From assembly GCF_012927455.1 (NCBI RefSeq), contig NZ_JABBPE010000008.1, forward strand, positions 124,001-188,000: a DNA stretch of 64,000 bases, read 5' to 3'. This stretch comes from Polaromonas sp. GTDB lineage: Bacteria > Pseudomonadota > Gammaproteobacteria > Burkholderiales > Burkholderiaceae_C. How positions within the stretch are numbered: the first letter of the stretch is position 1; each line of letters opens with the position of its first letter. Position numbers and translations under genes: made by a program. This document shows positions 613 to 18,527 of the stretch, piece after piece. The notes under the pieces are model-generated. The model was not told the DNA's origin, did no database searches, and saw only the letters and a list, made by a program, of their open reading frames with translations.

Positions 613-991
613 AGTTTTGCTTATCACTGGCACACGGATCGCCAGTAAGAAAATGTTACCTAAACATTCTAAGCAGTAAAAATTCTGATCGCCCAAGGGA
701 CCAAGGAACCAAATATGTAACCGAATAAATTAAACAAAATTCGTGAAATATTTGGTATTCTCGAGCAATAAATGGGTTTTTATGTCTTTTTTCTTGGCAT
801 TTTATAGTTATAAATAGTTACAAAATAAAAAATGTGCTCAAAGTTGTTTTCACAAAACTTTACTTAAAAATAGGATAAGTAACCACTTAATATGAGTCAC
901 GACCATACGTAATTTGCTTTAATTGGAACGGGTTGTAACGCCAGCTATTCAGGTCCGTGTCCACCGCACAAAGGTGCCAAAAGGAAACCAA
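613..991. other. AT-rich spacer upstream of the two-component system
   Basis: No gene is supported here. From about 690 to 900 the DNA is far richer in A and T than any neighbouring stretch, with runs such as ATAGTTATAAATAGTTAC. An ATG at 892 opens only seven codons before TAA. The stretch presumably carries the promoter of the histidine kinase gene, but no confident -35/-10 pair was picked. Confidence 0.5.
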
Positions 992-2497
992 TTGGAAGTG
1001 ATACATCATCGTGAGCAACTTGCCCGTCCATTGAACGACAGCGGTCAGCTTTCGCAAGCGCTTGCTGCCAACGTCCGTGAAGGCGTCGCTGTCTTTGACC
1101 ATGATTTGCGCCTTGTCCTATGGAACCCTTGCCTGGAAAAGGTGACCGGCCTGGCAATGCACGAAGTCCTGGGCAAGCAGGTTCTTGACCTCTTTGCATC
1201 TTCGCAAGGTTTGGAAATTGACTGCAACTTGCAGCGTGCGATGAAAGGCGAAAGCTTCTCCCTACCTGCCATGCTCGCCCGTACCAGCGGGCAGGCGCGG
1301 GTCATCCGAAACCGTGATGCGCGCATGTTCGACGAAAGCGACCTTGTCTGGGCCATGCTGGCCTACTCACCCTGGCGAGATGACGAAGGCGCGATTGCCG
1401 GCGTGATTGTTGTAGTCTCCGACCGCACCGAGCGCGTACAGGCCAAAAGGAAGCTCAACGATACCTGGTCCCGCAGTCAAGCCGTGATCAACCACATGCT
1501 CGATGGCATGGCGATGGTCTCGAGCGAAGGGCACATTGAGTCTTTCAATCTTGCGGCGGAGCGCAGCTTCGGCTATCGGGCCAAAGAGGTCATTGGTCAA
1601 AACGTTCTGATGCTCTTTCTCTGTCCGTTTACATACTCGAATGACTGCACGTTAGAGCAATGCCTCGTCAGCGGCAAGAAAGGCATTAGCGGAGTCGGCC
1701 GGGAGGTGCTGGGCCTGCGCAAGGACCAGAGCACTTTCCCGCTCGAACTTGTCGTCAGCAAAATAGCGTTGCGAGGCGGGCACCTGTTCACCGTGCTGCT
1801 TCGCGACATCAGCACGCGCAAGGCGGCGCAAGAAGAACTTGGGGTGATCACCGAGCGGCTGCGGCAGCTGGCGGCGCATCAGGAATCCGTGCGCGAGGCA
1901 GAACGCTCCCGTATCGCACGAGAATTGCATGACGAACTCGGAGGGCAGCTGACGGCGCTCAGGTTCGACGTGAACCGGCTTTCCCAGTTGCCTGGCATCG
2001 GTCTGGAACGCGTCGGACAGCTGCGCGACTCGCTGGACGCCGCCATCAGATCGACACGCTCAATCATTTCTGACTTGCGTCCGCCGATGCTTGACCACCT
2101 AGGACTGTGGGGTGCAATCGAGTGGTACGCCGAGGGCCTGGCGAGGCGTTGCGCGCTCAACTGTCAAATACTCATCTGCCCCAATCTGGAGGATCTAAAG
2201 ATGTCCAACAATGTCGGAATTTCGCTGTTTCGCGTTGTCCAGGAAGCCCTGAGCAATATCGTTAAACACGCCGAAGCCCAGTCGATTATTCTTCGCGCCA
2301 AACGCCTGGACGATGCGGTGATCGAAGTGAAAATTATCGATGACGGCAAAGGGCTGAACCGGGAAGACCTTGATAAAACGGGGCACTGGGGCGTGCTGGG
2401 AATGCATGAACGGGTGCGCAGCCTGGGCGGAGAGTTAGCGCTCGAAGGCGCGCCGGGTCAGGGCACGACACTGCGCATCAGATTGCGGGTGAGCTGA
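992..2497 (+). CDS. PAS-domain sensor histidine kinase, NarL/HisKA_3 type
   Basis: This is a cytoplasmic sensor kinase of about 501 residues without clear membrane segments. It has two PAS-like modules, one starting near VAVFDHDLRLVLWNP and one near GHIESFNLAAERSFGY. These are followed by a HisKA_3 dimerisation domain with phospho-accepting His in RELHDELGGQL (codon at 1928-1930). The ATPase domain has an N box (VVQEALSNIVKHA), DDGKGL and GMHERV. The open frame reaches back to a TTG at 923. I prefer the TTG at 992 because AAGGAAA (981-987) lies just upstream and residues before it do not look like protein; GTG at 998 is an alternative. The response regulator gene begins one base after the stop, so the pair is one operon. 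The signal sensed is unknown. Confidence 0.85.
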   Translation: MEVIHHREQLARPLNDSGQLSQALAANVREGVAVFDHDLRLVLWNPCLEKVTGLAMHEVLGKQVLDLFASSQGLEIDCNLQRAMKGESFSLPAMLARTSGQARVIRNRDARMFDESDLVWAMLAYSPWRDDEGAIAGVIVVVSDRTERVQAKRKLNDTWSRSQAVINHMLDGMAMVSSEGHIESFNLAAERSFGYRAKEVIGQNVLMLFLCPFTYSNDCTLEQCLVSGKKGISGVGREVLGLRKDQSTFPLELVVSKIALRGGHLFTVLLRDISTRKAAQEELGVITERLRQLAAHQESVREAERSRIARELHDELGGQLTALRFDVNRLSQLPGIGLERVGQLRDSLDAAIRSTRSIISDLRPPMLDHLGLWGAIEWYAEGLARRCALNCQILICPNLEDLKMSNNVGISLFRVVQEALSNIVKHAEAQSIILRAKRLDDAVIEVKIIDDGKGLNREDLDKTGHWGVLGMHERVRSLGGELALEGAPGQGTTLRIRLRVS

Positions 2498-2498
2498 C

Positions 2499-3158
2499 AT
2501 GACGAAAAATCCAACTTCAAATTGCAAGCTGCGCGTGCTGCTGGTCGATGACCATCCCGTGGTGCGTCAGGGTCTGCGCACCATATTGCTTGAAGCCGGC
2601 GACATCGATGTGACGGCTGAAGCGGCCGATGCGACGGCAGCGATGGCTATCGTGCGCCGCGAGCGGCTGGACCTGGTGTTGTCGGACATGGGCCTGCCCG
2701 GCAAGACCGGGCTGGATCTGCTCAAAATGATCAAGGCCGAGCAACCGCAGCTGCCAGTGCTAATGCTCAGCATGTATGCGGAAGAAGTCTTCGCCGTGCG
2801 GGCGCTCAAGCTGGGCGCGGCGGGCTACCTTATGAAAGACGCGGAGGCCCATACGCTGGTGGAGGCCATTCGCAAAGCGGCCAAGGGTGGCAAATACATC
2901 TCGGCGGGCGTTGCCGAACGGCTCGCCGCACAGCTCGCATCCGACTGCAAAGGTGCTTTGCACGAACAGCTGTCAGAACGCGAGTTTGAAGTATTTCGCC
3001 TGATCGCCACGGGCAAGAGCCTGACCGAGATCGGTCTGGGGCTGCATGTCAGCGTCAAGACAATCAGCGGCTACCGCGCCCGCATACTGGACAAGACCGG
3101 TTTTCACAGCAACGCGGATTTCACCCGCTACGCCATCGAACAACGCCTGGTCGATTAG
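2499..3158 (+). CDS. NarL/FixJ-family response regulator
   Basis: This 219-residue protein has an N-terminal receiver domain (VLLVDDHPVVRQGL; phospho-acceptor Asp63 in LVLSDMGLPG; Lys in GYLMKDA) and a C-terminal LuxR-type helix-turn-helix (LSEREFEVFRLIATGKS, then VSVKTISGYRARI). It is the cognate partner of the kinase immediately upstream, with one base between the genes. Such pairs control transcription of target operons. The nearest candidate targets are the SDR and multicopper-oxidase genes downstream, but no binding site links them, so that is only a guess from position. Confidence 0.9.
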   Translation: MTKNPTSNCKLRVLLVDDHPVVRQGLRTILLEAGDIDVTAEAADATAAMAIVRRERLDLVLSDMGLPGKTGLDLLKMIKAEQPQLPVLMLSMYAEEVFAVRALKLGAAGYLMKDAEAHTLVEAIRKAAKGGKYISAGVAERLAAQLASDCKGALHEQLSEREFEVFRLIATGKSLTEIGLGLHVSVKTISGYRARILDKTGFHSNADFTRYAIEQRLVD

Positions 3159-3381
3159 TCACCCGTTCCCCAGTGCTGCTTTGGCGGCACTACCCTGGAC
3201 TCGCTTGAGCATGACGGCATCAAGTACGACCCCCAGTTGCGAGAGATCATGCCAGCGGGTTCGGTTGCGACAAGCGGCAACGGAACGCCACGTCTACCTT
3301 TTTTCAAAGTACTAAAGCAGTTGAGGGTTGCACGCGGCGTCTGCGTTGGGCATGTCGGGGGCCAGCGGGAGGCCGTTACTT

Positions 3382-4125
3382 TCAGACCTCTTGACGTGTG
3401 GGCCTGAACAGAATTTCGTTTATATCAATATCGTCGGGCTGACTCATCGCGTAAGCCACGGCTCTCGCGAAAGAATCGGCCGGGATGGCATCTTCGTAAA
3501 TCTTTTTGACGCTGGCGGCCACATCTGCTTCCGTGATGCTATTCGGCAGTTCAGTCGCCACAGCCCCCGGCGATATAACCGTCGTTCGGATGTTGTAAGG
3601 TTTTACTTCCTGTCGCAGACCTTCGGACAGCGCCCTGACGGCATGCTTGGTTGCTGCGTAGACAGCGCTACCAGGACGAACTTTGTGGCCAGCGACTGAA
3701 GAAACGTTAATGATGTGTCCCGCTTTTTGCTTTTGCATGTAGGGCAGAGCAGCTGCGATGCCATACAAGACTCCTTTGATGTTGACATCAATCATGCGGT
3801 CCCAGTCTGCGATCTTGAGCCGATCGAGCGGGGAATGGGGCATCAACCCGGCGTTATTAATCATCACGTCGATCCGGCCATAAGCCGCAACTGCGGCCTC
3901 CACCAAATGCTTGACCTGCTCGCTTTGAGTGACGTCGGTTTGCACGGCAATTGCTTTGCCTTCGCTGCCGCCCAACTCCTGGGCTAGGGCTTGAATCCGT
4001 TCCATCCGCCGGGCACCCAATACCAAGATGGCACCTTGCCCAGAAAGGTGGCGTGCTGTCGCCTCGCCAAGCCCGCTGCTCGCGCCGGTGATGACAACAA
4101 TTTTTCCTTCAATGTTATTACTCAT
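3382..4125 (-). CDS. SDR-family NAD(P)-dependent oxidoreductase
   Basis: This is a classical short-chain dehydrogenase of 247 residues. It has the Rossmann cofactor motif TGASSGLG close to the N-terminus, NNAGLMP, the catalytic Ser in NVSSVAG and the YAATK (YxxxK) motif. The ATG at 4125 is chosen because GGAGA stands at the right distance upstream; the longer frame from 4164 adds 13 residues without a ribosome site. It resembles the YdfG-like group of broad-specificity alcohol dehydrogenases. The substrate cannot be inferred. The gene is divergent from the first multicopper oxidase and shares its 5' region with it. Confidence 0.85.
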
Positions 4126-4613
4126 AGTGATCTCCAAATGGTCGGAATTGCTTGCAAAGCCCAAGTCTGCCTTATCTCGAATGACCTTTGAGCCAGCGAG
4201 AGACTACCTAATGAAAAACGGGGCACCGAGCCAAAAATATGTCCTTCTGCCGACAGTCCAAACCTTACCAGCGGACCGCCCTGTTGTCGTGCCCAACAAA
4301 GTATTTCGCCTCAAAACGCCAGGCCGTCCTAAGCCCAGGGGGCGGCACCCGAGGCCTGCGGGCGGGCGGTACGCCATGGCTTTCCAAGTTGCGAAATAGC
4401 GCGTGAGAAAAATCTGCCACGCATTCGAGAATTTCCTGCCACAAGGCTGAGATATTTCTGGTTTCACACTCGCCGATGCTGCCTTTAAATAGAGCTGTTG
4501 ATGGTTTCATTTATTGCATTCGTGATTCAGCAAATCCCGATGACATGGATGCAGGAAACCTCAATCCGGTTCAAAGCAAAGCAAAGCAAAGCATTTTTGA
4601 AAGGAAAGTAAGT
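4126..4613. other. Divergent regulatory region, SDR / multicopper oxidase 1
   Basis: This 488-bp spacer separates the SDR gene (leftward) from the first multicopper oxidase (rightward). It holds the 88-bp element at 4405-4492 that recurs upstream of the second oxidase. Just before the oxidase start is a short GCAAA triplication (AAAGCAAAGCAAAGCAAAGC, from about 4573) and the ribosome site AAAGGAAA. The open frames across it in both directions look like shadows. Confidence 0.6.
4405..4492 (+). promoter_or_regulatory. Shared upstream element, copy A (before multicopper oxidase 1)
   Basis: This 88-bp block begins GAGAAAAATCTGCCA and contains TGAGATATTTCTG and CGCCGA. It aligns without gaps to 11533-11620, with 66 of 88 bases identical by my hand count. 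It lies about 120 bp before the first oxidase start. Two copies, each ahead of a multicopper oxidase gene, suggest a promoter with a common regulator site. The regulator is not known. Confidence 0.65.
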
Positions 4614-6812
4614 ATGTACCTATCATCCAAAGCATCCGCGGCGCGTATTCGGGAAGCCGAAAAAGCCCGTAACAACCGCCTCGAAGTTATCAAGGCCCTG
4701 TCGCACGGCCAAGTGTCGCGGCGCGAATTGGTCAAGTGGGGAATTTTCACATCAGCTGGCGTGCTGGCTCTGAAAAACGGCTTGAGCCCATTTATCGGCA
4801 ATGCTTTTTCCGCCATTCCCACCGGCATTCCGACCAGCCCGCTGTTTGGCGTGCTGCCGTTCACTACACCCATGCCGCGATTCGACCTGATGGCGCGCCA
4901 GCCCATTTCCGCATTAACACCGGCGCCCACTGCACAGGCCAACACCACGCAGCAGCTCTTGAATCCCGCTTTACCCGGCGTAGTGGCTGGAGACACTGGC
5001 CCGATCGAAGGCCGGCCTCCGGGCGCGATCTGGGCCCACCAGAACTTTGCCGCCATGCCCCCCAGGGTTGCCATCATCGCAACCCAAGAGGGCGCCAAGG
5101 CCAACACCAACTACAACCCGGGCGTCGCCTCGCAGTTCAATTCCGGCATTACCGGCGGCACTGCTGCTTCGCCAATCGCGCCAAAATTTCACCCGGGCCT
5201 GCCGACCCAGTCACCCGACAAGGTGTGGACCTTTAACGGAACTATCCCGCCCAAGCTGGCCATCGGTGTTTATGGCGAACCGATCCTTTTTCGCCACTAC
5301 AACAAGCTGCCGGCTGACGTCACGCAAAATGGCGGCTTCGGACGCCACACCATCAGCACCCACGAGCACAACGGCCACCATGGCGCGGAGAATGACGGCT
5401 TCACCGGCGCCTTCTTCTACCCCGGCCAGTATTACGACTACCACTGGCCGATCGTGCATGCGGGCTTCAAAACCATCAACACCGCAGCTACCGACGCGCG
5501 CTGCGGCGCCCCCAACGGCAGCGGCGGCATCACCAAGCTGCCGGGCGACTGGCATGAGACGATGAGCACGCACTGGTTTCACGACCACATGTTCAGCTTC
5601 ACATCGCAAAACGTCTACAAAGGCAACGCCGCGATGTTCAACCTCTACAGCTCGCTGGACCGGGGCAACGAGGCGATCAACGACGGCATCAACTTGCGCC
5701 TGCCCAGCGGCCGGGCCAAGGATTACGGCAACCTGGAGTACGACGTCAACCTCATGGTGGCGGAAAAGGCCTGGGACGCCAACGGCCAACTCAACATGGA
5801 CATCTTCAACTTCGACGGTTTCATCGGCGACCGGATGACGGTCAACCTGACCTACAAGCCGTATTTTGAAGTCGAACGCCGCAAGTACCGTTTCCGTATT
5901 TTGAACGCCAGCGTATCGCGCTTTTTCAAATTTGCGCTGAGCGACGGCAAGCCCATGATCCAGATCGCCAACGATGGCAACCTGCTGCCGGGGCCAATCG
6001 TTCTTACCGAGCTGGACGAGCAAGGTATTGCCGAGCGCTTTGACATCGTGATCGACTTTTCGCGCTACACCAACGGACAGCGCGTTTCGATGGTTAACCT
6101 GTGCGAGCATGCCGATGGCAAAGGGCCCAAGCAGGACTTGACGCTGGGCGAAGCCCTGTCGGGCAAATCGCCCGACCCGTGCGTCGGCAAATTCCTTGAG
6201 TTCCGTATCGTTCGCGATCCCGCAGTGCCCGATGTCAGCCAGGTTCCTGCGGTGCTGATTCCCAACCCCGACCTGTCGCTGATTCCGGTGGCGCGCGAAC
6301 GCGTCTTCGAATGGGGCGGCGGCGCGGCCAAGACCACCAACGACCCGGATTCGTCGGCCTTTGGCCCATGGGGCGCCAAGACCGACGGCGGGGCCATGCT
6401 GGCAGCGGACTTCGGGCGGGTGTCGGCAAGGCCGAAAGCCGGTACCCGCGAGATCTGGACCTTGCGCAACGGCGGCGGCGGCTGGGATCATCCGATCCAC
6501 ATCCACTTTGAGGAAGGCCAGATCCTCGAACGCAACGGCAGCCTGGCCAATGTTCCGGCAGCCGAGCGAGGCCGCAAGGACGTTTACCGCTTGAGGCCGA
6601 GCGGCAGCGTCAAGATCACGATGCAGTTCCGCGACTGGGGCGGCATGTTCATGGAACATTGCCACAACACGGTGCATGAAGACAACGCGATGCTGCTGCG
6701 CTGGGAAATCGACGATAGCGGTTTGCCCTTCCTCAACCCGTTGCCCACACCGATCCCGACACCGCAGGGCGTGACGTTCCGCGCGCCGACGGAGATTCTT
6801 CCCAACGCGTAG
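4614..6812 (+). CDS. Tat-exported multicopper oxidase 1
   Basis: This 732-residue protein is a multicopper oxidase with all four copper motifs in order: HEHNGH (250-255), HWFHDH (320-325), HPIHIH (626-631) and HCHNTVHEDNAM (682-693), the last including the type 1 Cys, His and a candidate axial Met. Near the N-terminus SRRELVK precedes a hydrophobic stretch, a twin-arginine signal, so it should act in the periplasm or outside. It is longer than CotA-type laccases, with extra sequence before the first copper motif. ATG 4614 is preceded by AAAGGAAA; an in-frame extension to 4476 has none. Multicopper oxidases couple one-electron substrate oxidation to O2 reduction. Here the substrate (metal ion, phenol or other) cannot be read from sequence. 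It heads a run with a small secreted protein, an SCO-cytochrome c and a di-haem peroxidase. Confidence 0.92.
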   Translation: MYLSSKASAARIREAEKARNNRLEVIKALSHGQVSRRELVKWGIFTSAGVLALKNGLSPFIGNAFSAIPTGIPTSPLFGVLPFTTPMPRFDLMARQPISALTPAPTAQANTTQQLLNPALPGVVAGDTGPIEGRPPGAIWAHQNFAAMPPRVAIIATQEGAKANTNYNPGVASQFNSGITGGTAASPIAPKFHPGLPTQSPDKVWTFNGTIPPKLAIGVYGEPILFRHYNKLPADVTQNGGFGRHTISTHEHNGHHGAENDGFTGAFFYPGQYYDYHWPIVHAGFKTINTAATDARCGAPNGSGGITKLPGDWHETMSTHWFHDHMFSFTSQNVYKGNAAMFNLYSSLDRGNEAINDGINLRLPSGRAKDYGNLEYDVNLMVAEKAWDANGQLNMDIFNFDGFIGDRMTVNLTYKPYFEVERRKYRFRILNASVSRFFKFALSDGKPMIQIANDGNLLPGPIVLTELDEQGIAERFDIVIDFSRYTNGQRVSMVNLCEHADGKGPKQDLTLGEALSGKSPDPCVGKFLEFRIVRDPAVPDVSQVPAVLIPNPDLSLIPVARERVFEWGGGAAKTTNDPDSSAFGPWGAKTDGGAMLAADFGRVSARPKAGTREIWTLRNGGGGWDHPIHIHFEEGQILERNGSLANVPAAERGRKDVYRLRPSGSVKITMQFRDWGGMFMEHCHNTVHEDNAMLLRWEIDDSGLPFLNPLPTPIPTPQGVTFRAPTEILPNA

Positions 6813-6828
6813 CGAGATCGGCTCGCCG

Positions 6829-6860
6829 CCGCAGCGGTGCTGTGTTTTGCAGCGCTGCGG
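6829..6860 (+). other. Intercistronic hairpin after multicopper oxidase 1
   Basis: An 8-bp perfect inverted repeat (CCGCAGCG / CGCTGCGG) sits shortly after the oxidase stop. No T-run follows, so it may be an mRNA-stabilising or processing hairpin rather than a terminator. Confidence 0.35.
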
Positions 6861-6923
6861 CATGCGGTCTTTCCTTGCAAATTTCAAATCAGATATTGAA
6901 CTTGAACTGAACAGGAGTTAGCC

Positions 6924-7484
6924 ATGAATATGCAATTTTTACGCGGCACCCGCAGGGTGCTGGCCGTCATACCGATGGTCGTGGTTTTATTGACCGGGAC
7001 TTCTTCGGCAATGGCGCAAATCGCCTCGACCGCGACGGCGGTCGCACCGGCCCCTCCGGCCAGAAGCGTTACAACCATTGTGATCACGGGGACGGTGCCA
7101 GGTCTGCCGGAAGACGTCAGTTTTTCCAAGGCGTCCGTCGAAATTGGCAGCACGCTGACGCGCGCTTCCGACCCGGCCCTTCCGCCGGTGTTGATCATTG
7201 ACATCACCTTTCTGAAGGCGGCAGGGGTTGGCGCAACCACCAAGACGAAGTTCGTTGCCCAGGCCGAGGTCATCAAGACCAGGACGTTTGCGACCACCCA
7301 GGTCCTGGCGATCACATTCCCCTTCAACGAGGACAAGGGCGTCGTCGCAGTCACGCCCGACGTCAACTCGGCGGTGCTGGCAGCGGCGCGTTCCGGGCTT
7401 GCGACTTTCACCATCACGGTTGATGCCAATGGCACCATCACCGGCGCGTTTGGATCGATAGGCGCCAATACCTTCGCCCTGTAA
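6924..7484 (+). CDS. Small secreted protein of unknown function
   Basis: This 186-residue protein starts at an ATG preceded by AGGAG. It has a clear Sec signal peptide (basic MNMQFLRGTRR, then a hydrophobic core, cleavage likely after SAMA). The mature part is rich in Val, Thr and Ala with alternating hydrophobic residues, suggesting an all-beta fold. It has no Cys and no metal-binding or haem motif that I can see. I do not recognise the family. It lies between multicopper oxidase 1 and the SCO-cytochrome c gene on the same strand, so it is likely a periplasmic partner in that operon, but its role is unknown. Confidence 0.75.
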   Translation: MNMQFLRGTRRVLAVIPMVVVLLTGTSSAMAQIASTATAVAPAPPARSVTTIVITGTVPGLPEDVSFSKASVEIGSTLTRASDPALPPVLIIDITFLKAAGVGATTKTKFVAQAEVIKTRTFATTQVLAITFPFNEDKGVVAVTPDVNSAVLAAARSGLATFTITVDANGTITGAFGSIGANTFAL

Positions 7485-7500
7485 CGATTCAACTCGACAG

Positions 7501-7530
7501 GCCGTCTGCAAAAGACGGTCTGCCGGGTTG
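7501..7530 (+). terminator. Possible attenuator hairpin
   Basis: CCGTCT and AGACGG pair around a GCAAA loop (7502-7518), followed by a weakly T-rich stretch. It lies between the small secreted protein and the SCO-cytochrome c gene and could reduce read-through rather than stop transcription. Confidence 0.35.
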
Positions 7531-7572
7531 TTTCGTTTTCAATACATCTCGAAAAAAGAGGGATTCAATACC

Positions 7573-8568
7573 ATGTTCAATATCATGCAAGGGAAAAGCT
7601 GGTCAGGCGTGATGGCAAGAACACTATCGGCAACATTGTGCGCAGGCGCCTTGTCGCTGCTCACCATCGGTTCCGCAGCGGCCGAAAATGCCTATGGCGC
7701 CAACTATTTTCCCAATGTGCCGCTGACCACGCAGGACGGCAAAACCGTCAAGTTTTATGACGACCTGATTAAGGGCAAGTCGGTGGCGATCAACGTCATT
7801 TACACCAGCTGCAAGGACGAATGCCCGCTGGAGACCGCCAAGATGGCCCAGTTGGCGCGCATTTTTGGCGACAAGATGGGTAAAGAAATCTTTTTCTATT
7901 CGATCAGCATCGATCCCAAACACGATACGCCCGCGGTGCTCAAGGCGTATGCCAAGAACTTCAATGTCGGACCTGGCTGGCAGTTCCTGACCGGCAAGGA
8001 AGCGGACATCAAGGTGCTGGTAAAAAAACTCGGCTTGTCCCGGGGAAATGACCTCGCCAACAAAGACGGCCACACCGCCAGCCTGATGGTCGGCAACGAG
8101 CCGACCGGCCAATGGATGCGCAACTCGGCGGTTGACAACCCGGTATTTCTGTCGGCGTCGATCGGCAGCTTTCTGGGCTGGAGGGACGACCCCGCGGCGC
8201 GAAAAACCTATGCAGAAGCCGCTCCGCTGGTCATCGATCAGGCCGCCTATATGTTCCAGAGCCGCTGCAGCGCCTGCCACACCATCGGAGGCGGCGACAA
8301 GATTGGCCCGGACCTGGCGGGCCTGACGGCACGGCGTGAACGCAACTGGGTGGCGCGCTACCTGATGTCGGCCGACAAGATGCGAAGCGCCGGCGACCCG
8401 ACCGCCGTTGAGCTGTCAAAGAAATACAAGACCGCCCGCATGCCTGACCAAAACCTGGCCGGGGACGATTTGAAGCTGATGCTTTCCTACCTGGAAACGC
8501 AAAACAGCGCTACGGGTAAAACGGCGCAAAAAGAACCTGCAAAAAAAGAAACGACGCACGTCCACTGA
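7573..8568 (+). CDS. SCO1/SenC copper chaperone fused to cytochrome c
   Basis: This 331-residue exported protein has a signal peptide ending near GSAAA. A thioredoxin-fold SCO domain follows, with the copper-binding CxxxC (Cys80 and Cys84 in YTSCKDEC) and conserved His167 (DGHTASL). A class I cytochrome c domain at the C-terminus has haem-binding CSACH (232-236) and candidate ligand Met290 (ARMPDQN). The tail is Lys/Glu rich and ends HVH. ATG 7573 is used; the frame extends to a TTG at 7528 without a ribosome site. SCO proteins deliver copper or act as thiol reductants. The fused haem suggests electron transfer linked to copper loading of the neighbouring oxidases, which is an inference. Confidence 0.9.
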   Translation: MFNIMQGKSWSGVMARTLSATLCAGALSLLTIGSAAAENAYGANYFPNVPLTTQDGKTVKFYDDLIKGKSVAINVIYTSCKDECPLETAKMAQLARIFGDKMGKEIFFYSISIDPKHDTPAVLKAYAKNFNVGPGWQFLTGKEADIKVLVKKLGLSRGNDLANKDGHTASLMVGNEPTGQWMRNSAVDNPVFLSASIGSFLGWRDDPAARKTYAEAAPLVIDQAAYMFQSRCSACHTIGGGDKIGPDLAGLTARRERNWVARYLMSADKMRSAGDPTAVELSKKYKTARMPDQNLAGDDLKLMLSYLETQNSATGKTAQKEPAKKETTHVH

Positions 8569-8758
8569 ATGATTGGCAAGCGCTCAAACGCTGAGCCGCG
8601 TTGGTTCTGGTCTGGTGCGCCTGCTGCCCTGGACCAGTCAATGACTGCATTCGGGCGCCAACAACTTTCCTTCGCTCTCCTTTTTTCCAAATTGTTGTCT
8701 GAGTGAGGCGCCAGCGCCAGCGTCAATTGAATCGAATATTTACAGCTTGGGGAAAACC
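8569..8758. other. Spacer between SCO-cytochrome c and peroxidase genes
   Basis: This 190-bp spacer contains no supported gene. TTGGGGA at its right end serves as the ribosome site of the peroxidase gene. No terminator or strong promoter was recognised, so co-transcription is possible. Confidence 0.4.
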
Positions 8759-10798
8759 ATGAAAAGCCGACATGCCTTTTTCGTTTTAAACCGCCTGACA
8801 CAGTTCAAGGATCGACGCGGCCTTCGAGCGCTTGCGGCCTTGGCCACTATTTTGGCGGCGAGTCTGTCAACAGTCGCCACGCTGCAGGCCCAAACAACCG
8901 TTACCACGGCGGTCATGATCCCGTCCTTGAAAACGGTGCCAGTGCCCGGCCCGACGGACGCGCAGCTGGCGCTGTACGTGCGCGACAAGGCCGCCGCCAT
9001 CCAACTCGGCAAGGCGCTATTCTGGGACGTGAAAGTCGGAAGCGACAACAAGACCGCATGCGCCAGCTGCCATTTCCAGGCGGGCGCCGACAACCGGACC
9101 GTCAACCAGCTCAATCCCGGGCTGCTCGGCGGAGACCGGACCTTTCAGCTGGGCAGGCCGAATTACCCGCTTAAAACTGCCGATTTTCCGCTGACCAAAT
9201 ACGGCTCGATCGATCCGGCAAGCCTGAAAATCTCCGACTTCAATGAGCCTGTTTCATCGCAAGGCGTCTACACGGCGGACTTCACCGGACTCGGATCGAC
9301 CGGCAACCCGGACCTGTGCACATCGGTATCGGATGCAGTGAGCAGTGGCGGCGACGGCTTTCATCGCGACGGCCTGAACACCCGGCGCGTCGAACCGAGA
9401 AATTCGCCGACGGTGATCAATGCGGTCTTCAACTTTCGCAACTTCTGGGACGGCCGGGGCAACAACATGTTCAACGGCGGCGACCCGTTCGGCCTGCGCA
9501 ACCCCAACACGTTTATCTATCAAAACGTCAACGGCGTACTGCGTCAGGTAGCCGTTGCCCTTCCCTCCTCTTCCCTGGCCTCGCAAGGGTCGGGCCCGCC
9601 CTTGAGCGCGACCGAAATGAGCTGCAACAGCCGCCCGTTCGTGCTGCTAGGGCGCAAGCTGCTGTCGCTGGCGCCACTAAGCAGTCAGCAGATCGACGGC
9701 AATGACAGCGTTCTCGGGGCGCTCGCGGTACAGCAGGGGCTGAAAACCTCGCCGCTCTACCAAGACCTCATCAAGACCGCGTTCCAGCCCAGTTTCTGGG
9801 AAAGCTTGACGAAAATCGACTTGACGGCGGCCGACCAGAGCAAAACCGCGTCGATGGACTTGACCCCTAAAACTAAAAACAACACGCTTGTCAAAGCGGC
9901 CAGCCAGATGGAGTTGAACTTCCCGCTGTTCCTTGGCATCGCGCTGCAGTTGTACCAGTCAACGCTGGTCGCCAACGATACGCCGTTTGACCGCTTTGCC
10001 GAAGGCACCACCACCGCGCTGACGGCGCAGCAGCAAAACGGCCTGGCTATTTTCAAGGGACAGGGGCGTTGCGTCGCTTGTCATGGCGGCGCTGAATTTA
10101 CCAACGCGTCGTTCGCTCATGTCACCAACAAACGGCTGGAACTCATGCCGATGGCCGGTGGCATCAACGCCGTTTATGACAGCGGCTTTTACAACATCGG
10201 CGTTCGGCCGACGGCAGACGATGTCGGCGTGGGCCGCACCGACCCGTTCGGCAATCCGCTGTCCGAAACGCGGATGGTGCAAAACGGCAAGGCGTCGCTA
10301 TTGGGCAACAGCTTCGATCCAGCCGCCAACCCGGCAGTCAGCGCGACCCAGCGCGTTGCGGTTGACGGCGCCTTCAAGACGCCGGGCCTGCGCAATGTCG
10401 ATCTGACCGGGCCGTACATGCACAACGGCGGAAAATCGACCCTGAAGCAGGTCGTTGATATGTACAACCGGGGCGGCGATTTTGCGGCGGAAAATAAAGC
10501 CAACCTGGCGCCCGACATCGTGCCGCTTGGGTTGACGGAAGCGCAGAAAGACGACCTGGTCGCCTTCCTGCTGTCGCTGACCGATGACCGCGTCAGGTTT
10601 CAAAAAGCGCCGTTCGACCATCCATCGATCTGCGTACCCAACGGCCATGCGGAAGACGCTGCCGGCAAGCTGGTCGCTGATTCGAGAGACGCGTTAAAGG
10701 CGGCGGAAGTACCTTATCGGTGCATTGCAGCCAACGGCGCAAGCGGCGCGAGCTTGCCGTTGACACCCTTCATGGGACTCAGCCCTTATTCACGGTAA
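8759..10798 (+). CDS. Di-haem cytochrome c peroxidase / MauG-like protein
   Basis: This is a 679-residue exported protein. After a signal peptide (cleavage near LQAQ) come two CxxCH haem sites, CASCH (101-105) and CVACH (438-442), the layout of the bacterial di-haem peroxidase/MauG family. The motifs RRVEPRNSPTVINAVFNFRN and TPGLRNVDLTGPYMHNGG also fit. It is markedly longer than the classic 320-350 residue CcpA, with a long insertion between the haems. It could be a hydrogen-peroxide reductase or a MauG-type enzyme acting on a protein or organic substrate; sequence alone does not decide. ATG 8759 is preferred over the TTG at 8747. A strong hairpin follows the gene. Confidence 0.9.
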   Translation: MKSRHAFFVLNRLTQFKDRRGLRALAALATILAASLSTVATLQAQTTVTTAVMIPSLKTVPVPGPTDAQLALYVRDKAAAIQLGKALFWDVKVGSDNKTACASCHFQAGADNRTVNQLNPGLLGGDRTFQLGRPNYPLKTADFPLTKYGSIDPASLKISDFNEPVSSQGVYTADFTGLGSTGNPDLCTSVSDAVSSGGDGFHRDGLNTRRVEPRNSPTVINAVFNFRNFWDGRGNNMFNGGDPFGLRNPNTFIYQNVNGVLRQVAVALPSSSLASQGSGPPLSATEMSCNSRPFVLLGRKLLSLAPLSSQQIDGNDSVLGALAVQQGLKTSPLYQDLIKTAFQPSFWESLTKIDLTAADQSKTASMDLTPKTKNNTLVKAASQMELNFPLFLGIALQLYQSTLVANDTPFDRFAEGTTTALTAQQQNGLAIFKGQGRCVACHGGAEFTNASFAHVTNKRLELMPMAGGINAVYDSGFYNIGVRPTADDVGVGRTDPFGNPLSETRMVQNGKASLLGNSFDPAANPAVSATQRVAVDGAFKTPGLRNVDLTGPYMHNGGKSTLKQVVDMYNRGGDFAAENKANLAPDIVPLGLTEAQKDDLVAFLLSLTDDRVRFQKAPFDHPSICVPNGHAEDAAGKLVADSRDALKAAEVPYRCIAANGASGASLPLTPFMGLSPYSR

Positions 10799-10820
10799 CT
10801 CGCGGCAATCAGGTCGGACC

Positions 10821-10849
10821 GCAAGCGCCTGCCCATTGCAGGCGCTTGC
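10821..10849 (+). terminator. Strong hairpin after the peroxidase gene
   Basis: A perfect 12-bp stem (GCAAGCGCCTGC and its complement) closes a 5-base loop just after the peroxidase stop. The following bases are only mildly T-rich. It is the most likely end of the multicopper oxidase 1 transcript. Confidence 0.6.
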
Positions 10850-10891
10850 ATATTTGCCAGCGACTTTCCCCCTTGTTTAACAACTAAATAT

Positions 10892-10940
10892 GCCTCTAGC
10901 CCATACAACACGGGCGCTAGTAGCTATTTAATTAATAGCA
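10892..10940 (+). repeat. Dispersed 50-bp repeat, copy 1
   Basis: Nearly full copy: GCCTCTAGCCCATAC, CGGGCGC, then the palindromic core GCTATTTAATTAATAGC. Forward orientation, between the peroxidase and cupin genes. Confidence 0.85.
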
Positions 10941-11030
10941 GGCAGACTGGATGACGGGCACGCTTGCGCCAACGCTTTTTCCAAAAAATGGCTAGTATCA
11001 CGAGAGTTGTATTTCACTTGGAGAAACGCC

Positions 11031-11303
11031 ATGAACGTTCAGGATTTTGAAGCTACCCTGCGTCAAGACGGGTTTACTGAACTGCTGGCGCGCCAACAGC
11101 CGCCCGGCCATTTTTTGGGCGATCACCAGCACACTTTTGATGCGCGCGCCTTGATCATCCAGGGTGACATCACACTCACGGTTGCAGGCCTGGCGAGCGC
11201 CTATCCCCTGGGGACGGTGTTTGAGTTGGCGGCCGGTACGCTGCACCAGGAGCGAGCTGGGGCCGAGGGCGTCACCTACCTCGTCGGTCGGCGATCTACC
11301 TAG
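11031..11303 (+). CDS. Small cupin-domain protein
   Basis: This 90-residue single-domain cupin has a short N-terminal helix (NVQDFEATLRQDGF) and then beta-strands carrying candidate metal ligands in HFLGDHQHTFDA and GTLHQERAG. The ATG at 11031 follows TTGGAGAAA. It has no signal peptide, so it should be cytoplasmic. Small cupins of this kind often bind a metal or sense a small molecule. It lies between the two multicopper oxidase modules and is closed by a strong terminator, so it may form its own unit. Its specific role is unknown. Confidence 0.8.
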   Translation: MNVQDFEATLRQDGFTELLARQQPPGHFLGDHQHTFDARALIIQGDITLTVAGLASAYPLGTVFELAAGTLHQERAGAEGVTYLVGRRST

Positions 11304-11309
11304 CGCTCT

Positions 11310-11341
11310 GGCTGCCGCAAAAATGGTTTTTTGCGGCAGCC
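11310..11341. terminator. Bidirectional-type intrinsic terminator
   Basis: A perfect 14-bp inverted repeat, GGCTGCCGCAAAAA and its complement, encloses a short loop. It has an A-tract on one arm and a T-tract on the other. It ends the cupin transcript and would also stop leftward transcription. Confidence 0.85.
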
Positions 11342-11532
11342 AACCAACGGTCTACCGGCCGTACCATTTTCAGCACTACCGCTTCGTGCAGCAAAGCGAA
11401 GGGCGGCCAGCCGCCCCGCAGGCACATCCAGCACCTCCAAGCCGCACCTCCGACCTGATTTGTACGGGGCCAACCGCCCTCTTGTGCCATCTTTTCCACG
11501 TGACGCACGTGACGCATGGGCCCTGCGCGTGC

Positions 11533-11620
11533 GAGAAAAATCTGCCATGTATTACGGAATGTTCTTACGCAATACTGAGATATTTCTGCTTTCCCGCGCG
11601 CCGAAGCCCCATTCAAATAT
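11533..11620 (+). promoter_or_regulatory. Shared upstream element, copy B (before multicopper oxidase 2)
   Basis: This is the second copy of the block described at 4405-4492. The first 15 bases are identical and the segment with TGAGATATTTCTG is exactly conserved. It ends about 265 bp before the oxidase start, further away than copy A, so the two genes have different leader lengths. Confidence 0.65.
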
Positions 11621-11886
11621 CTGCAGTAAAAAAATCTCTTTTTACTGCGCTGAGGTTTGCGAACCTCTATCAAAAGGTCAGAAGAATGCACCGTACCAGT
11701 CATCCAGGCGTCAGTCGCTCTTATTCACCACCGCCCAGGTGAAATTCTGCAAATTTTGAGATTGTCCAGATTTCAAATCTGTCCCCAATTTATCAACTAT
11801 TCATGTCGCCTTCCGCGAAATCTGAGCGCGATTCAGCTTACGTTTTTCACAGCGTTGACGCACTACTCATTACTGTTAGAACTCAA

Positions 11887-13827
11887 ATGAACACCAAAGA
11901 TTTTCCTGTTACAGAGCCATTACCCGGCCCAAGTCGCCGCACCGCCCTGAAAGTCGGGCTGGCAGTCGGATCAGCCAGCGTTGCCGGTATCGCCAAGGCG
12001 GCACTGGCACCTGGGATGACCAGCACCACGACCACGCAGCTAGGCGGCACAGTCATATTGGCCCGTAGCCCAAACCCCAGCCCGCAGACCACGCCCTTCC
12101 TGGAGGCCATGCCGATCACCCCGCTGCTGCCCGAGCGGCTGTTGACCGATCAGGCCTTTGCCAAGACACCGCCCACCGAGGCGCCCAACCGCGCCATCAA
12201 CCCGGCCACTGGCATCCCCTTTGAAGGACGGGGCGAATCGCACCAGTTGCGCAGCCTGAATCCGCCGCAGAAATTTTTTGTCCAACGCTTCGGTGCAGTG
12301 CCAGCGACTTCCGTTCATCCGCAACTGGCAAAGCAGGTCAATCTCTGGGGGTCCAATTTGGGCGGGGCCAACCTTACGACCGACAAGCCGATGACGCCCA
12401 TGCCCACCATTGTGAGCCGCTACCAGACGGGTGCCAATACCGCGATTTTGGTGCGCCGTTTTAACAACCTGCCCACGGGCGCGCCCAGTGGCGGCTTTGG
12501 CAAAAACCAGATTTCGACGCACACACACAATTTTCACTCGGCGCCGGACAGTGATGGCGGGCCTTGCGATCCGGGTCTGGGGGCCTTGTCAGAGGATCCG
12601 AAGACACAGGGCCGGTTCTACTTTCCGGGCCAGTACTACGACTATTACTACAACATGAAGCGCGCCGGCTTTACCAACCCGGCATTCGCCCCCGACGGTG
12701 ATATTCGCGAAACACTGGGAACGCTTTGGTATCACGACCACCGCGAGGCCCATACCGCCGAGAACGTCTACAAAGGCCTGGCCGGCTTTCATATCGTGTT
12801 TAACGAGCATGACACGGGCAACGAAGCCACAGGGTTCAAATTGCCGAGCTTCCCGCAGTTCGACATTCCGATGATCTTTACTGACCTGCTGATCGACCCG
12901 GCCACGGGCCAGGCGGCGTTTGACCTGTTCGACACCGACGGCCACCTGGGCGACAAGTACCTGGTCAACGGCAAGGTTCAGCCCTTCTTCAATGTCTCCA
13001 AACGGCGCTATCGCCTGCGTTTGCTGGACATGGGGCCATCGCGCTTCTACCAGTTGTTCCTGACGAATCCGGACAACCTGGCACAGTCGATTCCGTACTG
13101 GCGCATCATGAATGACGGCAACTTGCTGCCCAAGCCTTTGCAGGTGACCAGCGTCAAGCTGGCCGTCGCGGAGCGGGCAGACATCATTGTCGATTTCAAC
13201 AAGCTCACCGCACCAGGTGGTGCAGCGGCCGGCGCCACCCGGTTGTGGCTTGAAAACCGCTTGATACAGACAGACGGCAAGGGTCCCACGGACCAACTTA
13301 ACCCTGCCGGAACTCCGGCCAACGTGCTGGTGGAGTTTCGTATTGGCGCGGTGGTCGCAGACGGCAGCGCTGACCCGGCCTTGATCACCAGCTTTGCGCC
13401 GATCACCCTGCCGCCCATGGAAGCGCCTATTGTTACCCGCACGTTTAAATGGGAACGGACCAACGGACAATGGGTTGTCAATGGCCTACCAATCAGCTGC
13501 GACGAGGTGCGCTTCACCATGAAGCGAGGCACCACGGAGAAATGGATCTACCAGACAGGTGGCGGCTGGTCGCACCCGATCCATCATCACTTTGTCGAGG
13601 GACGAATTCTCAGCCGCAACGGCGTGGCCATAGCCCCAGGCTCGCAGGAGTTTGGCCGCAAAGACGTGGTGTGGCTGGGTGAAGGCGAGACCGTTGAGTT
13701 TTTGCTCAAGGTCACTGACTACGTTGGCGTTTATCCCATCCATTGCCACAACGTCGTTCATGAAGATCACGCCATGATGCTGCTGTTTGCGGTTCGGGAT
13801 GTGGGTGATACCAATCCAACCCCCTGA
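11887..13827 (+). CDS. Tat-exported multicopper oxidase 2
   Basis: This 646-residue multicopper oxidase has all copper-site motifs: HTHNFH (212-217), WYHDH (281-285), HPIHHH (563-568) and HCHNVVHEDHAM (619-630). The N-terminus has a twin-arginine signal, SRRTALK, followed by a hydrophobic stretch ending AKAALA. It resembles multicopper oxidase 1 throughout (for example PGQYYDY and NDGNLLP) but is shorter and clearly a diverged paralogue. The start ATG at 11887 lacks a strong ribosome site, while a 28-residue upstream extension in frame looks non-coding. It is followed at 52 bp by its own SCO-family gene. Substrate unknown. Confidence 0.92.
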   Translation: MNTKDFPVTEPLPGPSRRTALKVGLAVGSASVAGIAKAALAPGMTSTTTTQLGGTVILARSPNPSPQTTPFLEAMPITPLLPERLLTDQAFAKTPPTEAPNRAINPATGIPFEGRGESHQLRSLNPPQKFFVQRFGAVPATSVHPQLAKQVNLWGSNLGGANLTTDKPMTPMPTIVSRYQTGANTAILVRRFNNLPTGAPSGGFGKNQISTHTHNFHSAPDSDGGPCDPGLGALSEDPKTQGRFYFPGQYYDYYYNMKRAGFTNPAFAPDGDIRETLGTLWYHDHREAHTAENVYKGLAGFHIVFNEHDTGNEATGFKLPSFPQFDIPMIFTDLLIDPATGQAAFDLFDTDGHLGDKYLVNGKVQPFFNVSKRRYRLRLLDMGPSRFYQLFLTNPDNLAQSIPYWRIMNDGNLLPKPLQVTSVKLAVAERADIIVDFNKLTAPGGAAAGATRLWLENRLIQTDGKGPTDQLNPAGTPANVLVEFRIGAVVADGSADPALITSFAPITLPPMEAPIVTRTFKWERTNGQWVVNGLPISCDEVRFTMKRGTTEKWIYQTGGGWSHPIHHHFVEGRILSRNGVAIAPGSQEFGRKDVVWLGEGETVEFLLKVTDYVGVYPIHCHNVVHEDHAMMLLFAVRDVGDTNPTP

Positions 13828-13879
13828 AGTTTGACACGCCTATACCTGATCAAAACTCAACATTTTTCGGAAAAACATC

Positions 13880-14491
13880 ATGATTAACATTCAAAAGAGA
13901 AGCCTGCTGCTCGGCGCCGGCGCTGCTGCGGCTGCCTTCGCCGGCACCAAGGTGATGGCCTCAGCGCCGGCCATTCGTGAGCAAGACCCGCGTGAACAGT
14001 TGCGCCAAAAGCGCTTCCCCAACGTGCCGCTGCTCACGCATACCGGCAAAGAGGTGAGGTTTTACGACGACCTGCTTAAAGACAAGAAGGTGGTGATTAA
14101 CTTCATGTACACCGTCTGCACCGACATCTGCACGCCGGTGACGCAAAACATCCTGCAGGCGCAGCGACTGCTTGGCGATTTTGCCAAGGACATCCATTTT
14201 TATTCGATTTCCCTGACGCCGCTGCAAGACGATCCGGCAGCCTTGCGCACTTACATGAATGCCTTTCAAATCGGCAAGGGGTGGACCTTTCTGACCGGCA
14301 AGCCCGAGAACATCGAGCGCGTGCGGCAGGGACTGGGTTTTGCCCAGAGAGACGCCAAAGAAGATGCCGACATCACCAACCACGCCGGCATGCTGCGCAT
14401 TGGCAACGAGCGCATGGCAAGCTGGGGTCATGCGTCAGCAATCACCACGGGCAAGTCCGTTGCCCGGATGATCCGCTTCGAACTAGGCTAG
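13880..14491 (+). CDS. SCO-family copper chaperone / thiol reductase
   Basis: This 203-residue exported SCO protein has CxxxC with Cys80 and Cys84 (YTVCTDIC) and conserved His168 (NHAGML). It starts with a KRSLLLG stretch and a hydrophobic, Ala-rich segment that is either a signal peptide or a membrane anchor. It matches the SCO half of the SCO-cytochrome c fusion (FPNVPL, VRFYDDLLKDK, GWTFLTGK) but lacks the haem domain. It lies just downstream of multicopper oxidase 2 and is closed by an intrinsic terminator. It probably matures the copper sites of that oxidase. Confidence 0.9.
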   Translation: MINIQKRSLLLGAGAAAAAFAGTKVMASAPAIREQDPREQLRQKRFPNVPLLTHTGKEVRFYDDLLKDKKVVINFMYTVCTDICTPVTQNILQAQRLLGDFAKDIHFYSISLTPLQDDPAALRTYMNAFQIGKGWTFLTGKPENIERVRQGLGFAQRDAKEDADITNHAGMLRIGNERMASWGHASAITTGKSVARMIRFELG

Positions 14492-14547
14492 TAGTGCGGG
14501 CCAGCCAGTCCCGGAGGGACCGGCGTATCCAGTGTGAGGCTTAAGAG

Positions 14548-14583
14548 ACTTCGTCGCCCCAACCGGTGACGAAGTTTTTTTTA
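14548..14583 (+). terminator. Intrinsic terminator after the SCO gene
   Basis: Stem ACTTCGTC / GACGAAGT with a 12-base loop is followed by nine T residues. It ends the multicopper oxidase 2 - SCO unit. Confidence 0.88.
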
Positions 14584-14755: not shown

Positions 14756-15976
14756 TCACGGTAGCTTGGCGCCCTGCGTAAACCACAGACCGATCAGCGC
14801 CCGTTCGGCTTCGGTGATCTGCGTGGCGTTGTTCAGCGGCATGGCTTTAAGCAGCACCGCCTGCTGGTAGATGGCGGCGGCGTTGCGTTGCACTGCTTCG
14901 TCTGAATCGAGCCGCAGGTTTTTCATTTGCAGTTGCGCGCCGTGGCAGGCGTAGCAGCGCTGGGCGAGCACCTTCTTGACCTCAGAATAGTAGTCAACTT
15001 GGCCTGTAGCCATTACAGGACGGGCGCCACCAGCTATCGAATCTATAGCAGCTGGCCGCATCCACACGACCACGCCCGCGATCAAAGCCAGCCCCACCAG
15101 CGCGTAGGCCAGCGGATGGCGGTTACGCCCAAGCTTGTAACCGTGGCGCAGCACAAAAAACTGGCGGATGGCTGCGCCGGCCAGCATCATCAAAATCAGC
15201 ACCAGCCAGTTTTGCGGATGATTCCAGGTAAAGCTGTAGTGGGTGCTGAGCATGGAAAACAGCACCGGCAGCGTGAAATAGGTGTTGTGCACGCTGCGCT
15301 GCTTGCCGCGCTGGCCGTGCAGCGGGTCCACCGGCTCGCCGGCCTTGATCGCCGCGACCACTTTTCGCTGGCCGGGAATAATCCAGAACAGCACGTTGGC
15401 GCTCATGGCGGTGGCCATCATGGCGCCCACCAGCAAAAAGGCCGCGCGCCCGGCAAACCAGTGGCAAGCCAGCCAGGACGCGGCGCAAACCAGCAGCAGC
15501 ACCAGCGCGCCAACCATGGCATCTCCCTGCTTGCGCTGGCCGAATATCCGGCAAATGGCGTCGTAAAGCAGCCAGAACAGCACGAAAAAGGACAGCGCCA
15601 CGGCGATGGCGGCAGCGGGCGCCCAGTTCATCAGCGATTTGTCGATCAGGTAGGCGCTGGCGTTCCAGAGATAAGACACGCTGAAGAGCGCAAAACCAGA
15701 CAGCCAGGTGCTGTAGCTTTCCCAGTAAAACCAGTGCAGATGCGCCGGCAGGGTGGGCGGCCGCACGGCAAACTTGACCGGGTGGTAAAAACCGCCGCCG
15801 TGCACCGCCCAAAGCTCGCCGCTGACGCCCTGTTTGATCAAATCGTCATCGACGGGCGGCGTCAGGCTGGAGTCGAGAAAGACGAAGTAAAACGACGAGC
15901 CGACCCAGGCAATGGCGGTGATGACATGGACCCAGCGCAGCAGCAGGTTGGCCCAATCGAGGAAGTAGCTTTCCAT
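14756..15976 (-). CDS. puuD: Membrane-bound urate hydroxylase (urate oxidase) with C-terminal cytochrome c
   Basis: This 406-residue integral membrane protein oxidises urate to 5-hydroxyisourate. The N-terminal part has several membrane helices starting LLLRWVHVITAIAWVGSSFYF, with the PuuD signature WAVHGGGFYH. The last 67 residues form a cytochrome c domain with CYACH (341-345) and candidate ligand Met379, so electrons pass to haem and then to the respiratory chain. ATG 15976 is preferred over an in-frame TTG at 15985. A copy of the dispersed 50-bp repeat encodes about residues 309-325, in the linker between membrane and haem domains. xdhC lies upstream on the same strand, and uraH, uraD and puuE nearby complete the pathway. 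Confidence 0.93.
   Translation of the reverse strand: MESYFLDWANLLLRWVHVITAIAWVGSSFYFVFLDSSLTPPVDDDLIKQGVSGELWAVHGGGFYHPVKFAVRPPTLPAHLHWFYWESYSTWLSGFALFSVSYLWNASAYLIDKSLMNWAPAAAIAVALSFFVLFWLLYDAICRIFGQRKQGDAMVGALVLLLVCAASWLACHWFAGRAAFLLVGAMMATAMSANVLFWIIPGQRKVVAAIKAGEPVDPLHGQRGKQRSVHNTYFTLPVLFSMLSTHYSFTWNHPQNWLVLILMMLAGAAIRQFFVLRHGYKLGRNRHPLAYALVGLALIAGVVVWMRPAAIDSIAGGARPVMATGQVDYYSEVKKVLAQRCYACHGAQLQMKNLRLDSDEAVQRNAAAIYQQAVLLKAMPLNNATQITEAERALIGLWFTQGAKLP
15001..15050 (+). repeat. Dispersed 50-bp repeat, copy 3, inside puuD
   Basis: GGCCTGTAGCC, GGACGGGCGCCA, then core GCTATCGAATCTATAGC. It is translated in frame from the other strand as the puuD linker. Confidence 0.8.
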
Positions 15977-16124
15977 ACATCGCAATCATGCAAAGCTGCT
16001 CACCACTGCGGGCGCTGTAAGCAGAAAACCGGTCACGAACAACAGAAACTGCGCGATTGCGCCAGTTTCGAGGCTCCGCTGCGACCTGAGGCTGTGAGTT
16101 TATCGGCTTTACCGTTCAGCACGG

Positions 16125-16985: not shown

Positions 16986-17195
16986 TGGTGAATCGTCGAA
17001 GAAATAAGTGATTAAATAATGTGCAAAATGCTTGAATTTGCTACTGAAAAACCAATAGACTGACAACTCTGAACCCCAGAACTACAACCAAAAGATTGAC
17101 GTCCGACCGAAGCTCCTCACATTAGCATCAAGTGCAAACCCGCTGAGCACTGAGTGAACACATTAGCCTTTGCCACTCAAGAAAAGGAGACCTCC

Positions 17196-17720: not shown

Positions 17721-17754
17721 GACCGCTTGGTCATGCCACAGGCAGACTCAAAAT

Positions 17755-18431: not shown

Positions 18432-18527
18432 GAAATTTCCTGAAGTTTGAAGAGTGACACCGGCGTAAAAGAACTCCGGAGCCAGCAAAAGTGTATAGAG
18501 TTTTATCCTTCGGGCTATGATGATTTG

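Follow-up and report, generated by a model that had tools for sequence, protein, structure and literature searches.

A candidate regulon of multicopper oxidases and SCO proteins in a Polaromonas genome

The DNA analysed here, hereafter the window, comprises 64,000 nucleotides of a Polaromonas sp. genome (assembly GCF_012927455.1, contig NZ_JABBPE010000008.1, positions 124,001 to 188,000) and contains on its + strand a cluster (window 4406-14580) in which six of seven open frames (4614-14491) form two modules, each with a multicopper oxidase (MCO) and a SCO protein. Our preferred, though tentative, reading is that the cluster belongs to a small copper-oxidase regulon, which would use O2 to oxidise an electron donor of low molecular weight outside the cytoplasm. 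This reading is carried by an upstream element, by the conserved order of oxidase and SCO genes in relatives, and by the co-occurrence of the first oxidase with a small secreted protein, termed SEC.

Results

The first module consists of the oxidase MCO1, SEC, a SCO protein fused to a cytochrome c domain and a di-haem enzyme of MauG type, the second of the oxidase MCO2 followed by a SCO protein (SCO2). A preliminary description of this DNA had proposed such a cluster of two oxidases, two SCO proteins, a di-haem protein and a secreted protein, and it is confirmed by the open frames and by a Pfam scan of ten window proteins (family threshold E 0.001), which assigned Cu-oxidase_2 to both oxidases, SCO1-SenC to both SCO proteins and CCP_MauG to the 679-aa di-haem protein. 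Its claim of two exported oxidase-SCO modules with a common upstream element is likewise borne out. The regions upstream of MCO1 and MCO2 are identical in 72 of 95 bases, and the pattern AGAAAAAWCTGCC-N24..40-ATTTCTG has three exact matches in the 4.47-Mb genome, the backwards pattern none. All three matches lie upstream of oxidases of the MCO1/MCO2 kind, namely before MCO1 (4406..4460, + strand), before MCO2 (11534..11588, + strand) and, on contig C22, before a second MCO2-SCO2 copy whose oxidase is 80% identical to MCO2. As a search of the genome with MCO1 at E 1e-5 found these three oxidases and no more, the element marks all of them. It is common to the three oxidase units, and its function as a promoter is proposed only.

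A PAS histidine kinase and a LuxR-type response regulator (923..3158, + strand; Pfam PAS, HisKA_3, HATPase_c, Response_reg and GerE), which lie outside the region of the preliminary description, are candidate regulators, and this adjacent two-component system may bind or control the element. Kinase or regulator genes also occur near some oxidase modules in other genomes, an occurrence for which no chance expectation was computed, and a sigma-54-type regulator is found near MCO1 in locus L005, with homologues in L009 and L011. The counts of sigma-70 promoters and terminators in the region were not above those of shuffled sequences; sigma-54 sites were searched for by eye only. A terminator-like hairpin of 16 pairs and a T run follows the second module (14543..14580, + strand), the regional number of such matches again not exceeding shuffles.

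A scan of named genomes yielded 125 MCO1 relatives, of which the best 80 loci (best-segment identity 53-75%) were used. Many of these loci are short and all counts over them are lower bounds; loci of the window genome itself were left out of the neighbour counts. The loci belong to Betaproteobacteria, Acidobacteria, Deltaproteobacteria, Xanthobacteraceae, Pseudomonas, Nitrosospira and others, many of them being metagenome-assembled genomes (MAGs). The succession of oxidase and SCO is conserved among them, with a SCO gene following MCO1 in 61 of the 68 loci that have at least 2 kb downstream (67 of 80 overall). The small protein that had been called a cupin (11031..11303, + strand) did not hold as a part of the system: this open frame is without a Pfam family and without a match above 45 bits in any of the 80 loci. 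In L031 and L054 the genes for MCO1, SEC, the SCO-cytochrome c fusion and the MauG-type enzyme stand side by side, as they also do on a Comamonadaceae plasmid, the final two overlapping there. A MCO2-SCO module directly follows the MCO1 module in L009 and L011, and further MCO2-SCO pairs occur in L088 and L135-L139. MCO1 is rare, being present in eight of 87 genus genomes and in two of 299 genomes of a family draw, the window genome included. Of the genus genomes, 38 are outside the high-quality set; a ninth genus match, in G004, is MCO2-like, and this genome was counted as free of MCO1. Recent transfer, considered on the grounds of composition, found no support, the third-codon-position G+C content of the cluster genes overlapping that of their neighbours.

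Fungal bilirubin oxidases are the closest solved relatives of both MCO1 (4614..6812, + strand, 732 aa; Cu-oxidase_2 2.9e-15, top PDB match 2.7e-40) and MCO2 (11887..13827, + strand, 646 aa; Cu-oxidase_2 3.5e-16, top PDB match 1.6e-50). Their translations carry the twin-arginine translocation (Tat)-like motifs SRRELVKWG and SRRTALKVG, read by eye and as motifs only. Each ligand of the type 1 (T1), type 2 and type 3 coppers, together with the HCHxxxHxxxxM motif, is found in 88-90 of 90 MCO1 rows, the rest being gaps plus one Leu, and in all 15 MCO2 rows; the MCO1 set holds the window protein three times, the MCO2 set holds the window protein three times and its paralogue twice. The axial Met is conserved in both oxidases. 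A Trp two residues before the T1 His (Trp624 in MCO1) is present in 89 of 90 MCO1 rows (the other being a gap) and in 15 of 15 MCO2 rows, while only one of seven outside oxidases, that of Arthrobacter, has it. In bilirubin oxidase a covalent bond joins this Trp to the T1 His, and the conservation of the residue in fungal and bacterial homologues was already reported (PMC6757100), for which reason the Trp itself is no discovery. Next to the HxH of its trinuclear site MCO1 has in addition near-invariant Met317, His320 and Met326, all three lacking in MCO2.

The cut-offs of the NCBIfam models CueO, PhsA and FtsP (525, 950 and 581 bits) were reached, by a wide margin, neither by MCO1 (108.9, 107.4 and 72.7 bits) nor by MCO2 (124.6, 105.8 and 98.2 bits). 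A tree separates CueO and six plasmid oxidases from a single group of MCO1- and MCO2-like proteins (100/99), and in it MCO1 forms a clade with its two alphaproteobacterial relatives (100/100); the outgroup branches are long and marked as unsure. The tree was built from 58 of 66 rows, the others being near-identical or partial, and covers neither McoA, MnxG, IoxA nor bilirubin oxidase; three plasmid rows were left out of alignment set A3.

In the SCO-cytochrome c fusion (7573..8568, + strand; SCO1-SenC 1.9e-19, Cytochrom_C 1.2e-7) the copper CxxxC, its His, the haem CxxCH and the Met are each conserved in 71-75 of 75 SCO rows, which include the window proteins and one SCO protein without haem. 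SCO2 (13880..14491, + strand; SCO1-SenC 1.1e-17) is without the cytochrome domain.

SEC (6924..7484, + strand, 186 aa) appears to belong to an undescribed family. Within the 87 genus genomes its profile matched all eight that contain MCO1 and none of the other 79. It also matched 16 of 22 MCO1 genomes from the named loci, three of which belong to the genus as well, and SEC relatives were found in 37 of the 80 MCO1-relative loci (in building the SEC set, seven loci that duplicated others were omitted). The window protein has no Pfam family, and the SEC family gave nothing beyond chance-level matches in one or two members when compared with Pfam and NCBIfam. The predicted structure is all-beta, with a predicted local distance difference test (pLDDT) value of at least 90 in 113 of 186 residues, and none of its 296 PDB matches reached E 0.001 (best 0.3). 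In the mature window protein, with cleavage placed by eye after residue 31, Cys, Met, His, Trp and Tyr are all absent; averaged over the SEC family, these five account for 3.7% of the last 130 residues, compared with 7-11% in the partner proteins. We read SEC as a putative redox-inert partner of MCO1. With this composition SEC is an unlikely target of the MauG-type enzyme.

The di-haem enzyme (8759..10798, + strand, 679 aa; CCP_MauG 3e-20) has two CxxCH motifs, which are invariant in 15 rows of relatives, as is Tyr569. In alignments to solved di-haem enzymes, Tyr569 coincides with the Tyr of 6e1c, an MbnH-type enzyme, and lies just beyond the stretch that matches a bacterial peroxidase. The Tyr at this position is what we take to be the second-haem ligand in MauG and MbnH, where bacterial peroxidases presumably have a Met ligand. 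Because of this MauG/MbnH-type Tyr, a maturation role appears likelier than peroxide removal; the peroxide handling suggested in the preliminary description is not supported, and a classical cytochrome c peroxidase was downgraded as a candidate. The NCBIfam cut-offs for MauG (115.5 of 443.85 bits) and MbnH (130.4 of 362.85 bits) were not reached. The rubber oxygenases RoxA/LatA, considered as candidate relatives, were absent from the 30 PDB sequence matches listed and were dropped, and the predicted structure of the enzyme (mean pLDDT 37.6) was unusable. All ten MCO1-relative loci with a di-haem relative have a SEC match (hypergeometric 2e-4, ancestry not corrected); in L063 the two sequences are incomplete and SEC is no direct neighbour of MCO1. 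A Trp in MCO1 as a specific target of the MauG-type enzyme found no support either: between 13 MauG-bearing and 27 MauG-free loci only W145 stood out (0.85 versus 0.37), and the window protein has a Phe there.

Two further observations concern di-haem genes of other genomes. A second kind of di-haem protein (DHOR) is encoded directly upstream of MCO1 in L011 (2746-4128), with relatives near MCO1 in L006 and L055. In L016, two large PKD-domain proteins (2748-5282 and 7452-9941) flank the di-haem gene, and relatives of these are found in L036, L038, L063 and L086.

Outside the cluster, the window contains urate/purine-breakdown-like genes (14756-21320, named from translations alone), the first of which has a homologue that is also downstream of MCO2-SCO2 in L137. 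A tandem pair of cyanophycin-synthetase-like genes is located at 30430-35312, and a lower-GC stretch with exopolysaccharide-type genes (ManC-like, WecG-type glycosyltransferase, porin, sugar transferase) at 38785-47879.

Discussion

In the preferred reading of a copper-oxidase regulon, the histidine kinase and LuxR-type response regulator next to the cluster are the most likely candidates for a regulator that would turn on three promoters bearing the same element. These would drive MCO1-SEC-SCO-cytochrome c-MauG, MCO2-SCO2 and, at its separate place in the genome, the second MCO2-SCO2 copy. Judging by their motifs, the oxidases would leave the cytoplasm folded, via Tat, and the SCO proteins would load their copper, as family knowledge and gene order suggest. 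SEC would bind MCO1 as a redox-inert structural or secretion subunit, a role to which its strict co-occurrence in the genus points, and the MauG-type enzyme would covalently mature or re-oxidise a partner, the methanethiol oxidase operon serving as the model. From what is known of the family, substrate electrons would enter the T1 copper near the invariant Trp and reduce O2 to water. MCO1 relatives in L057, L059 and L085, as well as a di-haem relative in L111, have type II secretion (T2SS/gsp)-like genes in their vicinity, and the presence of such genes near relatives and near the iox cluster of iodide oxidisers fits an extracellular action.

Mn(II) can be named as the leading substrate, albeit as a possibility only, because MCO-SCO operons with similar promoters are known for the Mn oxidases of Pseudomonas and because some relatives lie near genes for MopA-like peroxidases. 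MopA is an animal haem peroxidase for which Mn(II) oxidase activity is described (PMC6247904). In Limimaricola, the genes for an MCO1 relative and for an RTX-bearing animal haem peroxidase are about 1 kb apart; in Fuscovulum, the distance between an MCO1 relative and an animal haem peroxidase gene is about 6 kb (loci L084/L085). Three genomes have an MCO2-like gene at distances of 4.3, 7.9 and 9.6 kb from an An_peroxidase gene. Four Pseudomonas genomes (G772, G775, G779 and G781; loci L033, L040, L070 and L077) exhibit an unusual multiplication, with 4-6 MCO2-like matches and 4-6 An_peroxidase domain matches each.

Several results weigh against this picture. The window genome has no An_peroxidase match, and in the genus the enrichment is weak (three of eight MCO1 genomes versus five of the remaining 79; one-sided Fisher test 0.023, uncorrected for ancestry). 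Among the 22 named-locus MCO1 genomes An_peroxidase is present in 12 and missing in ten, and in none of the 22 was it seen near MCO1 itself. Eleven of the 12 also hold an MCO2-like match, which lies within 10 kb of An_peroxidase in three and is not on one contig with it, in the places listed, in eight, for which reason Mn(II) is rated no higher than a tentative lead. The assignment of Mn(II) as substrate is the leading one but unproven. SEC found no match in six of the 22 genomes. The MauG-type enzyme occurs in only ten of the 80 loci, and its absence from most loci, together with the lack of a MauG-linked Trp in MCO1, argues against a specific maturation of MCO1. As to regulation, the local regulator has a GerE domain and, according to Pfam, no sigma-54 activation domain, leaving MnxR-type sigma-54 control unmatched. 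The first half of the element was not found at up to two mismatches before the oxidases of relatives, and the element is therefore probably a local regulator site.

The regulon might alternatively be a laccase system acting on phenols or lignin fragments, with phenolics and not Mn as substrate. We place phenolics closely after Mn(II), as a doubtful candidate. Bilirubin oxidases are the closest solved relatives, the Trp-His adduct of bilirubin oxidase was reported to be crucial for the oxidation of substituted phenols (PMC6757100), and the multiplied oxidases of the four Pseudomonas relatives are what multi-laccase organisms might have. However, the element marks oxidase-SCO units only, none of the ten proteins scanned could be recognised as belonging to aromatic catabolism, and where relatives are linked to An_peroxidase genes this suggests a metal or a small oxidant.

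A more far-reaching proposal appears unlikely, namely that the cluster represents a new type of extracellular Mn(II)/halide oxidase complex spread over several phyla. It would combine an MCO of bilirubin-oxidase type with a Trp-His modification, SEC as an obligate, redox-inert all-beta subunit of new fold, loading by the SCO-cytochrome c protein and, in one branch, a di-haem enzyme with Tyr ligand for maturation, and it would act together with MopA-like peroxidases in genomes that have them.

Iodide is an improbable substrate. An iodide oxidase of the IoxA/IoxC kind would be in keeping with the iox cluster, described as an MCO with three SCO genes beside gsp genes (PMC9415286), with the gsp-like genes mentioned above, and with the occurrence of the module in Nitrosospira, homologues of ioxA/ioxC being reported in some Nitrosomonas (PMC12335899). 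The window, however, has two SCO genes and not three. Moreover, an MCO2 relative at 1e-60 was found in only one of 387 genomes of Alphaproteobacteria (the class of a Xanthobacteraceae genome), with no SCO match in the surrounding 18 kb.

Equally improbable is a CueO-like oxidase for the detoxification of copper or iron, with Cu(I) or Fe(II) as substrate. SCO proteins do handle copper, and the additional Met317, His320 and Met326 of MCO1 would suit such a function. Yet both oxidases score far below the CueO cut-off, neither a copper pump nor a CueR-type protein is among the ten proteins scanned, the element is found nowhere else in the genome, and MCO1 is rare. That the genes are independent and merely side by side, as the separate 190-bp upstream gap and sparse occurrence of the MauG gene and the MCO2 modules without MCO1 in the stretch examined might suggest, is poorly compatible with the element common to both modules, with the contiguous first module of L031, L054 and the plasmid, and with the adjacent modules of L009 and L011, and we consider it improbable.

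Only for few clades is it known which enzymes produce manganese oxides, free iodine or polymerised phenols in nature. The module, in which oxidase and chaperone are conserved together and an exclusive partner protein is added, is present in Burkholderiales, Nitrosospira, Pseudomonas, Acidobacteria MAGs and others and offers a defined gene set for culturable strains. It could show whether the Trp-His copper site known from fungal bilirubin oxidase is also formed in bacteria, and whether multicopper oxidases are matured by enzymes of MauG type.

Comparison with known systems

By analogy, the MCO-SCO module is of a kind already known; to our knowledge there is no earlier case of SEC as an exclusive partner, of a SCO-cytochrome fusion together with a Tyr-type di-haem gene, or of the three-promoter element. 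The preliminary description had considered the set undescribed, which stands insofar as no paper with this exact gene set was among the literature matches listed, a weak negative. It does not stand for its parts, since MCO-SCO operons are known for Mn oxidation (PMC11409713; PMC11930936) and iodide oxidation (PMC9415286), and a cuproenzyme-SCO-mauG arrangement is known as well (PMC5739008).

The fungal bilirubin oxidase MvBOx (PDB 2xll and others) is the top PDB sequence match and aligns with the oxidases at the axial Met and at the Trp two residues before the T1 His. It differs in its fungal origin, the match barely covers the N-terminal ~315 of 732 residues of MCO1, and the Trp-His adduct described for MvBOx is at most a prediction for MCO1 and MCO2. 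In the Bacillus complex MnxEFG, the MCO MnxG needs two small accessory proteins without known relatives, a situation resembling that of MCO1 and SEC; MnxE and MnxF are described as binding copper (PMC5622069), whereas mature window SEC lacks Cys, His and Met.

The methanethiol oxidase operon mtoX-SCO1/senC-mauG likewise combines a cuproenzyme, a SCO chaperone and a MauG-type di-haem protein with a proposed maturation role. Its oxidase is of the SBP56 family and not an MCO, and the operon as described names no SEC-like protein (PMC5739008). Among the ten window proteins scanned, none belongs to the SBP56 family. The iox cluster of Iodidimonas/Roseovarius shares an exported MCO, several SCO genes and nearby gsp genes, the latter as near some relatives. 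In its published description it has three SCO genes as opposed to the two of the window, an IoxA of 62 kDa and no MauG gene named, and it is by such descriptions only that the two systems are set apart (PMC9415286).

The mcoA and mnxG loci of Pseudomonas putida GB-1 (PMC11409713; PMC11930936; PMC8218464) differ in that sigma-54/IHF promoters are predicted there, as opposed to the GerE-type regulator here, and their gene lists, as given in these reports, name neither a SEC-like nor a MauG gene; MCO1 and MCO2 are likened to McoA and MnxG by gene order and not by sequence. In GB-1, as in the cluster, an MCO gene is followed by a SCO1/SenC gene, and the mnxG operon also includes a gene with a cytochrome c domain. 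Furthermore, the two oxidase promoters of GB-1 are described as similar in structure, with a two-component system proposed as their regulator, and both were reported to be activated only with Mn (PMC11930936).

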